Source: Candidatus Nanopelagicales bacterium | GTDB lineage: Bacteria > Actinomycetota > Actinomycetes > S36-B12 > GCA-2699445 | Length of the DNA: 64,000 bases | Assembly: GCA_030700225.1 (NCBI GenBank) | Contig: JAUYJT010000020.1 | Location: 1-64,000, forward strand | Direction of reading: 5' to 3' | In this document: positions 11,149-25,275 of the stretch, piece after piece | Layout: every line of letters begins with the position of its first letter | Numbering within the stretch: the stretch's first letter is position 1 | The notes under the pieces: model-generated | What the model saw: only the letters and a program-made list of their open reading frames with translations | The model's database searches: none | Told to the model about the DNA's origin: nothing | Translations under genes and position numbers: made by a program

Positions 11149-11155
11149 GTTAGAC
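11149..11155 (+). other. Integron-type core site GTTAGAC (left boundary)
   Basis: GTTAGAC fits the GTTRRRY core at which integron integrases cut after the G. It lies 44 bp before the hsdM start. Extended by its 3' flank (GTTAGACGCCC) its reverse complement matches 10 of 11 bases at the R'' side of the attC-like site at 25212, as expected for the two ends of one cassette. A 7-bp core alone is weak; the complementarity is the main argument. Confidence 0.5.
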
Positions 11156-11198
11156 GCCCCCAACCACGCCGATGGGCAAACGTCTGATGAGGTAGACC

Positions 11199-12827
11199 TT
11201 GGCGAAAAGGAAGAACAACGCGCAAGCAGCCGTGACCACCGGCGCCACCGTTGGCTACGAAGCCCAACTCTGGCAGATGGCCGACGCGCTGCGCGGCAGC
11301 ATGGACGCCGCCGAATACAAGCACGTCGTCCTCGGCCTCATCTTCCTCAAGTACATCTCCGACGCCTTCGAGGAGCGCCACGCGAAGCTCGTCGCGGAGA
11401 AGACGAAGGGCGCCGACCCCGAAGACCCCGACGAATACCGCGCGCAGAGCATCTTCTGGGTCCCGCCCGAGGCGCGCTGGACGCACCTGAAGGCACATGC
11501 CCGCCAGCCCACCGTCGGCCAGCTCGTGGACGACGCCATGGCCGGCATCGAGCGCGACAACCCGGCGCTCAAGGGTGTGCTGCCCAAGGACTACGCCCGC
11601 CCGGCGCTCGACAAGCAGCGCCTCGGCCAGCTCATCGACGTGATCAGCAACATCAAGGTCGGCGACGAGGCGAGCCGCGCGAAGGACGTGCTTGGCCGCG
11701 TGTACGAGTACTTCCTCTCGCAGTTCGCCAGCGCCGAGGGCAAGAAGGGCGGCGAGTTCTACACGCCGCGCTGCGTGGTCAAGCTCCTGGTCGAGATGCT
11801 CGAGCCTTACCGCGGCCGGGTGTACGACCCGTGCTGCGGCTCGTCGGGCATGTTCGTTCAGTCGGTGGAGTTCATCCGCGCGCACGCCAACGGCAACGGC
11901 AACGGCGGCAAGGCCCCCAAAGGGATGCGGCCCGACATCTCGATCTACGGCCAGGAGTCGAACTACACGACCTGGCGCCTCGCGAAGATGAACCTCGCCA
12001 TCCGCGGCATCGATGGCCAGATCGGCCACGGCGACACCTTCCATAACGACCGCCACCCCGACCTCAAGGCCGACTTCATCCTCGCCAATCCCCCGTTCAA
12101 CGTCTCGGACTGGGGCGGCGAGCGCCTGCGCGACGACAAGCGCTGGAAGTACGGCGCGCCGCCCAAGGGCAACGCCAACTTCGCCTGGGTGCAGCACATC
12201 GTGCATCACCTGGCGCCCACGGGCGTGGCCGGGTTCGTACTCGCCAACGGCTCGATGTCGTCCAACCAGTCCGGCGAGGGCGAGATCCGCAAGAGCCTGA
12301 TCGAGGCCGACCTCGTGGACTGCATGGTCGCGCTGCCGGGCCAGCTCTTCTACTCGACGCAAATCCCCGCGTGCCTGTGGTTCCTCGCGCGCGACCGCAA
12401 GGACGGCACCCGCTCCCTTGGGGGAGCCGGAGGGGGACAAACACTGAGCGACCGCCGCGGCCGGGTGCTCTTCATCGACGCCCGCAAACTCGGCCGCATG
12501 GCGGATCGAACGCACAAGGAGCTGACCGACGACGACATCGCTCGCATCGCCACGACCTATCACGCCTGGCGCGGCGAGAAGAACGCGGGCGAGTACGCGG
12601 ACATCGCCGGCTTCTGCAAGAGCGCCGCGCTGGATGAGGTCCGCAAGCACGGCCACGTGCTCACGCCCGGCCGCTATGTCGGCGCCGAGGCGGTGGCGGA
12701 CGACGGCGAGCCGTTCGACGAGAAGATGCAGCGGCTCGTCGCGACGTTGCGCGAGCAACAGGCCGGGGCCGCGAAGCTGGATGAGGCCATCGCCGCCAAC
12801 CTGAAGGAGCTTGGGTATGGCGGGTAG
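11199..12827 (+). CDS. hsdM: Type I restriction-modification DNA methyltransferase subunit HsdM
   Basis: A 542-residue N6-adenine methyltransferase. It has an N-terminal HsdM helical domain ([20 protein letters not shown]), the SAM-binding loop [11 protein letters not shown] at about residue 210, the catalytic NPPF motif at 297-300, and a helical tail ending [17 protein letters not shown]. With HsdS it methylates the target site; with HsdR it restricts unmodified DNA. The TTG at 11199 follows GAGG at a suitable distance. The 3' end overlaps the DUF1016 gene by 11 bp, and a copy of the last ~17 codons reappears before hsdS. Confidence 0.93.
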
Positions 12828-13920
12828 GAAGCCTAAAAGCGCGGCCGTCGCCCGTTCCGACTTCGCGGCCTTGCTCGCCGATGTGAAGGGCCGCATCGAG
12901 GCTGCCCAGACGCGGGCGGTGCTGGCGGTCAACGCCGAACTCGTCCGCCTCTACTGGGACATCGGTCGGATCATCCATGACCGCCAGAAACGCGCAGGCT
13001 GGGGCGCTGCCGTCGTCCCCCGGCTGGCCCGCGAACTGCACAACGAACTCCCGGAGCTCAAGGGCTTTTCCGAGCGCAACCTCAAGCTCATGGTGCAGTT
13101 GGCGTCAGAGTACCCGCACGCCTTTCCGGCCCCCGACTCAATTGGGCAACCGCCGGTTGCCCAATTGCCCAGCGACCTAGAAGGGCAACTGCCGGTTGCC
13201 CAAGTCCCCTGGGCGCACAACGTTTTGTTGATGCAGAAGGTCAAGGACCTCACCACCCGCCGCTGGTACATGGAGCAAACGCTCGCCAATGGCTGGAGCC
13301 GCAACGTCCTCGGCCTGCAGATCGATGCCCGTGCCCACGCCCGGCACGGCAAGGCCGTCTCCAACTTCGCCGCCCTGCTCCCCGCGCCGCAGTCGGACCT
13401 CGCGCAGCAAACGCTCAAAGACCCCTATATCTTCGACTTCCTCACCCTCACCGAGCCCTTCCACGAACGCGAACTGGAAACCGAGCTCGTCCGTCATCTG
13501 GAGAAGTTCCTGCTCGAACTCGGCCAGGGCTTCGCGTTCATCGGTCGGCAGTATCGCCTCGACGTCGGCAACGAGGATTTCTACATCGACCTGCTCTTCT
13601 ACCACCTGCGGCTGCGGTCGTTCGTCGTCATCGAGCTGAAGAAGGGCAAGTTCAAACCCGAGTACGCCGGCAAGCTCAACTTCTACTGCAACGTCGTCAA
13701 CGACCGGCTCAAGCACCCGACCGACGCCCCGACCATCGGCCTGATCCTCTGCCAGACGCGGGACCAGCTCTTGGCCGAGTACAGCTTCGCTGGCATCGAC
13801 AAGCCCATCGGCATCTCGACCTATGAGCTGACGCGGGCGCTGCCGGCGCGCCTGCAGTCGGTACTGCCGACGGTGGAAGAGATCGAGGCGGAACTGGCAC
13901 CGAAGCGGAGGAAGCGATGA
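12817..13920 (+). CDS. DUF1016/YhcG-type PD-(D/E)XK nuclease
   Basis: A 367-residue protein with the DUF1016 N-terminal helical domain ([18 protein letters not shown], then [17 protein letters not shown]) and a C-terminal PD-(D/E)XK nuclease core ([20 protein letters not shown] then [15 protein letters not shown]). Proteins of this family often sit inside type I restriction loci; their role is unsettled. AAGGAG precedes the ATG at 12817 by 7 bp; a TTG at 12811 is in frame. The middle holds an in-frame duplication (GQPPVAQLP / GQLPVAQVP). It lies between hsdM and hsdS and appears to have been inserted there. Confidence 0.88.
13141..13201 (+). repeat. Twin inverted repeats inside the DUF1016 gene
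   Basis: ATTGGGCAACC (13141-13151), spacer GCC, then its exact complement at 13155-13165 gives an 11-bp perfect hairpin stem. A second hairpin with GGGCAAC/GTTGCCC arms follows at 13183-13201. They encode the duplicated QPPVAQLP-like peptide, so the element was duplicated without breaking the frame. Confidence 0.85.
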
Positions 13921-24600: not shown

Positions 24601-25205
24601 AAGGCGTGGTGGACATCTTTGCCGCAGCGGGACTGAAGAAGCCCGACATCTCGATCCTCTCCGACGAGTTCCTGGCCGAGGTGCGCGGCATGCCCCAGCG
24701 CAACCTCGCCGTCGAGCTGCTCCAGAAGCTGCTCAAGGGTGAGATCGCGACCCGCCGCCGGAAGAACGTCGTCCAGGCCCGCTCCTTCGCCGAGATGCTG
24801 GAAGAAACCATCCGCCGATACCAGAACCGCGCCATCGAGGCGGCGCAGGTGATCGACGAGCTGATCGCCCTCGCCAGGGACATGCGGGAAGCGAACGCAC
24901 GTGGCGTGGCGCTGGGACTGAGCGAGGACGAGCTGGCCTTCTACGACGCGCTGGAGGCGAACGACAGCGCGGTCAAAGTGCTCGGCGACGAGACGCTCCG
25001 GGCGATCGCGCGCGAGCTGGTCGAGACGGTGCGCGACAACGTCACGATCGACTGGACGCTGCGCGAGAACGTCCGCGCGCAGTTGCGGGTGCTCGTCAAG
25101 CGCATCCTTCGGACGCACGGGTACCCGCCGGACAAGCAGGAGAAGGCGACGCAGACGGTGCTGGAGCAGGCAGCCTTGCTCTCCGCGGATTGGGCCGCGA
25201 TATGA
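21600..25205 (+). CDS. hsdR: Type I restriction endonuclease HsdR with an internal LexA/S24-type peptidase domain
   Basis: A 1201-residue protein from the GTG at 21600, chosen because it matches both scars and overlaps the rhuM stop; an in-frame extension to 21129 would lie wholly inside rhuM. Order: PD-(D/E)XK nuclease ([20 protein letters not shown], about 142-160); a ~175-residue insert (about 288-462); helicase with Walker A HTQGSGKS near 477, [24 protein letters not shown] and [13 protein letters not shown]; then a helical tail. The insert resembles a LexA/S24 peptidase: [20 protein letters not shown] with Ser363, and [12 protein letters not shown] with Lys408. Family HsdRs run directly from GYHQFHAV to [10 protein letters not shown]. 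The insert is in frame and neighbouring motifs are intact. Confidence 0.92.
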
Positions 25206-25211
25206 ATGGGC

Positions 25212-25275
25212 GTCTAGCAACCGGTTGCAGCGGACGGTCCGCTTCGCGGCGCGCCGCTGATGCCGAGCGTTAGGC
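25212..25275 (+). other. attC-like integron recombination site
   Basis: R'' GTCTAGC (25212-25218), L'' arm with CAGCGG (25228-25233), a central CCGC-TTC-GCGG hairpin (25239-25249), L' arm CCGCTG (25254-25259) and R' GTTAGGC (25269-25275). The arms are imperfect inverted repeats and the 64-bp length is usual for attC; the central GCTTCGCGGCGCG also occurs in the well-known aadA1 site. It begins 6 bp after the hsdR stop, the normal place for a cassette's attC. Confidence 0.75.

Follow-up and report, generated by a model that had tools for sequence, protein, structure and literature searches.

Within a 64,000-nt window of DNA from a Candidatus Nanopelagicales bacterium (positions 1-64000 of the 84,833-bp contig JAUYJT010000020.1), a type I restriction-modification (RM) operon with embedded accessory genes occupies positions 11150-25269. 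This 14,120-bp block, with its eight main genes, is very probably one integron cassette, inserted by an integrase that acted elsewhere or in trans, and persisting as a lone chromosomal cassette without an integrase. The cassette identity of the block is well supported, because the covariance-model score of its attC, the complementarity of that attC to the block's own left end and the presence of attCs beside hsdR in two relatives all point to it. Movement of the whole 14.1 kb at once is possible, if unproven. Block coordinates were checked exactly against the window sequence, and the two ends are as follows.

11149-11155 (+): left cassette core GTTAGAC (G, then TTRRRY), the best of 22 GTTRRRY sites against R''; the cassette starts at 11150.
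25212-25275 (+): attC site (R'' 25212-25218, R' 25269-25275), 41.3 bits, E = 3.9e-9, with an extrahelical base in its fold; the cassette ends at 25269.

An initial annotation, made from the sequence alone, had placed a core 49 bp before hsdM and an attC-like site 6 bp past the hsdR stop, and both were found exactly there. The core supplies the G|TTRRRY left boundary of a cassette, with the putative crossover between 11149 and 11150, and the TTG start codon of hsdM at 11199 lies 49 bp inside the cassette. At the other end, the hsdR stop codon ends at 25205 and R'' begins at 25212. The site is a real attC of 64 bp comprising R'' (GTCTAGC), L'', L' and R' (GTTAGGC), together with the unpaired L''-side A that the training attCs also show. 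All eight main genes are on the forward strand with the attC at their 3' end, which is the orientation of cassette cargo.

The covariance model behind this assignment was built from 24 aligned attCs, from which the window's own site was left out. Candidate attC-like sites for training came from plasmids bearing class 1 integrons and from IMG/VR contigs, and the 24 were hand-picked from 73 script matches by orientation, length (no more than ~75 nt) and non-redundancy. When the window was scanned with filters off, the site scored far above background, the runner-up reaching 14.4 bits; the model search that the initial annotation had proposed as a check thus came out in its favour. As a positive control, the model recovered attCs in 4/7 integron-integrase loci outside the training set. 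Under stricter filters, and counting the genome under study, 3/148 genomes of the order contained any attC match at E <= 0.001 and 2/394 genomes of the class at E <= 1e-4. No further attC match at E <= 10 was found in the 2.6-Mb genome itself among the 150 of 2718 first-look candidates that were scored, and an Rfam search of the window returned no match. Lone attC-like sites were also seen on contigs of two other metagenome-assembled genomes (MAGs) of the order, at 10284-10352 (-) of an 11.8-kb contig (L086, 40.5 bits) and 1033-1093 (-) of a 3.4-kb contig (L087, 35.1 bits); the sites look real, and the contigs are perhaps misbinned.

The second line of evidence is the match between R'' and the left end. 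R'' with the four bases preceding it reads GGGCGTCTAGC (25208-25218), and is strictly complementary to the left end at 11149 at 10/11 positions and to the present right core at 8/11. The forward strand of the window carries 22 GTTRRRY sites, six of which precede the attC; in a ranking of all 22 by complementarity, 11149 came first, the right core second, and the third site reached 7. The initial annotation had reported the better fit to the left boundary, and had read it by the rule that the R'' of a cassette is complementary to the cassette's own 5' end. This rule was borne out in a control array of 10 cassettes (L054), where R'' matched its own left end at a mean of 10.3/11 positions, the right core at 7.8 and the ends of other cassettes at 7.6. 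The own end exceeded the right core in 8/10 of these cassettes and tied with it in 2/10. The window's values of 10 and 8 fit the pattern of this canonical array. Moreover, the predicted bottom-strand fold is more stable for the re-formed circular attC (-24.5 kcal/mol) than for the integrated attC (-18.7 kcal/mol).

Lastly, attCs stand beside hsdR in two relatives of the operon. HsdR-based retrieval gave 141 loci, near-duplicates possibly among them, comprising 61 IMG/VR loci and, out of 591 loci on genome contigs, the best 80. At E <= 1 the model found three matches in the IMG/VR loci, all in L097, and five in the genome loci, of which three were in L232 and the other two were weak (L202, 16.8 bits; L219, 15.8 bits). 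Weak script hairpin candidates after the hsdR stop of L158 and L199 were rejected, as the model gave no match there at the same threshold. L232 (JAAYVQ010000489.1, titled Phycisphaerae) is a MAG contig of 7,615 bp, small enough that it could be misbinned, and is arranged in the following order.

136-199: attC
245-1816: hsdM
1806-3071: hsdS
3062-3787: Abi_C gene
3787-6939: hsdR
6949-7023: attC
7117-7449: SMR gene
7459-7558: attC

The cassette of L232 spans 194-7017 (6,824 bp), and places a complete type I RM system with Abi_C between two attCs. Its R'' matches its own left end at 10/11 positions and the right core at 9, its hsdM begins 51 bp after the core (49 bp in the window), and its HsdR is 73% identical to that of the window across the motor half. 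Positions 7107-7559 are ~78.5% identical to plasmid qacG2 cassettes, and this neighbour identifies the locus as a true integron array. In the other relative, L097 (IMG/VR 3300037104_001062), hsdR is 88% identical to the window's in the best segment and an attC of 23.1 bits lies 7 bp past its stop, followed by attCs of 33.8 and 35.1 bits. The second cassette of L097 follows the own-end rule at 10/11 positions (right core 6) and the third at 9/11; the left end of its RM unit lies beyond the contig edge. The attC array 3' of hsdR in L097 (7650-12582) also contains a minus-strand gene for a tyrosine recombinase (9054-10004) and one that is AbiU2-like, with a terminase gene beyond them.

The genes of the block are listed below with their Pfam and PADLOC assignments.

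11199-12827 (+): hsdM, type I methyltransferase (Pfam N6_Mtase 3.2e-106, HsdM_N 8.4e-30; PADLOC MTase_I)
12811-13920 (+): DUF1016/YhcG-type PDDEXK nuclease, accessory (Pfam YhcG_C 7.3e-64, DUF1016_N 3.1e-37; PADLOC PDC-S02)
13978-15291 (+): hsdS, specificity subunit (Pfam Methylase_S 5.9e-13; PADLOC Specificity_I)
15288-16658 (+): SIR2-like protein (Pfam SIR2_2 1.4e-13; PADLOC SIR2)
16648-18867 (+): HerA-type ATPase (Pfam DUF87/HerA 1.5e-24; PADLOC HerA 1.9e-147)
19125-20405 (+): DUF4143/AAA_14 ATPase, accessory (Pfam DUF4143 6.5e-47; PADLOC PDC-S01)
20602-21603 (+): RhuM-Fic protein, accessory (Pfam Virulence_RhuM 1.2e-23, Fic 8.7e-11; PADLOC PDC-S23)
21600-25205 (+): hsdR, restriction subunit, 1201 aa (Pfam HSDR_N, SWI2_SNF2, T1RH-like_C, Peptidase_S24)

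HsdM, HsdS and HsdR are all present by Pfam and PADLOC, as expected of a type I RM system. The genes had been described as co-oriented and overlapping throughout; the first holds, whereas the second does not, the spacings between the eight main genes being -17, +57, -4, -11, +257, +196 and -4. The three positive gaps contain duplicated ends of hsd genes, as follows.

13937-13992 (+): second copy of the hsdM 3' end (12770-12825), direct repeat D2, 91% identity over 56 nt
18866-18930 (+): extra copy of the hsdR start (scar 1), direct repeat D1, within open reading frame (ORF) 18867-19115; encodes MTTFTESIVEQAALAWLEATGW
20401-20465 (+): extra copy of the hsdR start (scar 2), direct repeat D1; encodes MTAFTESTVEEAAPAWLEIIG

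The first 65 nt of hsdR are therefore present three times, at 18866 after HerA, at 20401 after DUF4143 and at the true start at 21599, with 80% and 72% identity of the later copies to the first. The second hsdM end stands after the DUF1016 gene. An upstream copy of the locus's own hsdR start was found in 4/123 loci (L163, L182, L194 and the window, which is included in the 123) and a downstream copy in 0/123, the remainder of 142 loci having been dropped for want of a usable hsdR start. Relatives carry the accessory genes one at a time and at the same positions as in the window, with DUF1016 between hsdM and hsdS in L220, RhuM-Fic immediately upstream of hsdR in L165, L179, L192 and L203, and SIR2 (64%) and HerA (80%) upstream of hsdR in L201. 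The repeats show that accessory genes were added inside the unit, and each of them stands beside a stub duplicated from the hsd gene that it adjoins. We infer that an accessory gene and hsdR may have been taken together from other type I operons, each event leaving a stub of the old hsdR start; such acquisitions would account for 14.1 kb from a 7-kb core. Such growth may have come either before or after integration.

Within hsdR there is also an S24-peptidase-like in-frame insertion at ~22482-22997, directly before the helicase Walker A motif. It is missing from the HsdR relatives except 1/141 (L157, Planctomycetia, 65%), and had no match at E <= 1 among PDB sequences. Its sequence includes a possible Ser-Lys dyad (... 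YTVKRY), and autocleavage by this domain might separate the HsdR nuclease from its motor.

As to how the block arrived, the core cargo would be the type I operon (hsdM, hsdS, hsdR), with a predicted defence function, enlarged to 14.1 kb by the YhcG/DUF1016 nuclease, the SIR2-HerA pair, the DUF4143 ATPase and the RhuM-Fic protein. An integron integrase, elsewhere or in trans, would have joined the folded bottom strand of the attC to G|TT at 11149. Either an attG-like site outside integrons or what remained of a lost array would have served as the target, and the result would be a lone cassette in the chromosome with no integrase. We infer the integrase step, the type of target and the defence function of the block from these features. 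No sigma-70-like promoter site was found in 10900-11300 by comparison with the consensus. The composition of the block is foreign to the window, with a tetranucleotide distance of 0.176 vs 0.094-0.112 for five equal window segments. The contig is part of a 95.7%-complete MAG (GCA_030700225.1) in 85 contigs, and contains pheT, argJ, argB, argD and argH; the best match of its pheT (70%, 1134 bits; 99 order genomes searched, 85 matching) is to a genome from its own family, and the contig therefore fits the bin.

Immediately to the right of the block lies an ORF of low GC content.

25317-26456 (+): neighbouring ORF, starting 47 nt after the right core; no Pfam family above the cut-off.

The GC content of 25270-26456 is 0.552, vs 0.653-0.663 in the surroundings. 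The C-terminus of the ORF weakly resembles DUF2726, phage contigs contain distant relatives of the ORF, and no attC was found downstream of it. A second cassette that lost its attC may survive here as a remnant; if so, the insertion would more probably have been into an array since decayed than at an attG-type site.

A number of observations weigh against a cassette. The initial annotation had suggested looking for intI elsewhere in the genome, and none was found: the best match to TIGR02249 scored 82.8 bits against a cut-off of 265, so that intI and attI do not stand beside the cassette as in a complete integron. The strongest PF00589 matches, which were considered as candidates, are XerC- and XerD-like ORFs, and every TIGR02249 match fell far under the cut-off; the neighbours of xerC are dprA and a whiG-like sigma factor gene, which together with the arrangement of pheT and the arg genes point to Actinomycetota. 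Nor was there any attC in the left flank (10700-11200, best 6.5 bits) or in the right flank (25276-28500, best 7.6 bits). With a single attC in the window and none further reported in the genome, the locus lacks the at least two clustered sites of a cluster of attC sites lacking an integron-integrase (CALIN), and with eight main genes in 14,120 bp it departs from the usual size of a cassette and from the usual one or two genes, traits which are typical of cassettes, not defining. The own end beats the right core by only two strict matches and, when G-T pairs are allowed, both pair with R'' at 11/11 positions; the preference for the own end therefore depends on strict complementarity. Among relatives with at least 90 nt past the hsdR stop, a model-supported attC follows hsdR in 2/136, and most HsdR relatives thus travel by means other than integron cassettes. 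The attCs of L232 (18-25 bits) and the hsdR-adjacent attC of L097 are individually low-scoring. Finally, one study reports lower recombination for cassettes of at least 1,500 bp when at least one site has a low folding probability (PMC5371416).

The initial annotation would have been undermined by similarity running through the ends of the block, or by a lack of integrase or attC sites in any relative. In no examined relative did similarity run through the ends, yet a close copy of the block as a whole was not found either: hsdM DNA matched 23/148 genomes of the order, with no larger match above 69% identity, and HerA was confirmed in none of the viral contigs. Relatives of the operon do carry attCs (L097 and L232), whereas the organism's own class is mostly negative, with attC matches as few as given above and IntI in 0/394 genomes at E <= 1e-40 (controls silent). 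The IntI search works, since the same model exceeds its cut-off in 6/16 other genomes. As no integrase was found in the genome or the class search and no second attC lies nearby, the unit is probably immobile at present unless an integrase arrives. The predicted empty site, in which 11149 is joined to 25270, reads GTG / TTAGGCGCC, split at the crossover. A search with the joined flanks in 166 genomes of the order gave two matches of ~35 nt only and no empty site; the flanks are not conserved there, and the search is therefore no test of an empty site.

Even with a genuine attC, the block need not have been mobile at its present length. A small unit of hsdM-hsdS-hsdR (~7 kb, like L232) could have integrated and then grown in place, the 14.1-kb block never moving whole. 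This course of events, which is a variant of the cassette interpretation differing in timing only, falls a little short of an even chance. Internal additions are marked by the second hsdM end at 13937 and by the extra hsdR starts at 18866 and 20401, a 6,824-bp form exists in L232, and the six relatives with accessory genes at the same positions (L220, L165, L179, L192, L203 and L201) have no attC. However, nothing places these additions after integration, and the scars have diverged (72-91% identity), which fits old additions or different donors. The claim of one giant cassette therefore stands as to the unit, by the attC score, the own-end fit and L232 and L097; that the full 14.1 kb was transferred together does not follow from these, and the internal scars mark genes added inside the unit.

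Two further explanations would remove the operon from the cassette altogether. The attC could belong to some other small cassette or to an array that has decayed, the defence operon being merely adjacent and the left core a chance occurrence, as the single attC and the 22 GTTRRRY sites on its strand would allow. This is improbable, as the 6 bp between the hsdR stop and the attC leave no space for another gene, just six of the GTTRRRY sites precede the attC and the best match among them is the one 49 bp before hsdM; the recurrence of hsdR beside an attC in L097 and L232 also counts against it, and L232 largely refutes it. Still less credible, to the point of being very hard to sustain, is that the hairpin is a terminator or a chance attC-like palindrome in an ordinary defence island. 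In its favour, the hairpin is stable and GC-rich and follows a stop codon, and the genome has no integrase. Against it stand the model score, the unpaired L''-side base shared with training attCs and the rarity of attC matches in both the order and the class; nor would a terminator predict the match to the left end. A single integron cassette thus remains the interpretation that we prefer.

Integron cassettes are held to be small, normally containing one or two small genes. Darracq and co-workers and, in a second study, Kieffer and co-workers are both said to have described anti-phage defence cassettes in chromosomal and mobile integrons in 2025. The work of Darracq et al. 2025 on anti-phage defence in integrons is relayed in PMC12409362. 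The block resembles these in presenting defence genes as a cassette, and differs in holding a whole type I system with four accessory units. Like integron cassettes in general, it has the attC architecture, a G|TTRRRY left end, an R'' that fits its own left end, an attC 3' of the cargo and a short leader without a sigma-70-like promoter match; it differs from the cassettes of L054 (400-912 bp, n = 10) in its length, its eight main genes and the absence of an integrase. The longest mobile-integron cassette in a 2009 database was 1,860 bp, according to PMC3087341. Two attCs are now the minimum for reporting a CALIN, although single ones can be true (PMC9024848); like a CALIN, the block has an attC and no integrase, but its one attC can be assigned a cargo of 14 kb. 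Defence genes are embedded in other type I operons too, such as the VPI-2 system with TgvAB (PMC12409362), where accessory genes also lie among hsdM-hsdS-hsdR, whereas cassette ends and duplicated hsd stubs beside the accessory genes set the block apart. One survey discarded attCs without a neighbour within 4,000 nt (PMC7370490), and units like this block would be missed by design under such a filter. No report of type I systems as integron cassettes was found in the titles and abstract openings of the open-licence papers listed.

According to a 2025 review, integrons lack large multi-gene defence systems owing to the size of these systems. Type I systems bounded as a cassette in the window, complete between two attCs in L232 and with an attC after hsdR in L097 contradict this absence, and large type I cassettes make the size limit of integrons directly testable. 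The repeated hsd stubs beside accessory genes suggest a general route by which type I operons may accrete defence genes. Tentatively, and with rather less than an even chance of being right, integrons may move whole multi-gene defence islands, here a 14.1-kb unit as a single cassette with the integrase in trans, in a lineage that lacks integrons; the integron may also be a recurrent vehicle for type I systems, within which they accrete defence genes. If the block did move whole, one recombination event would have brought several defences to a new host.

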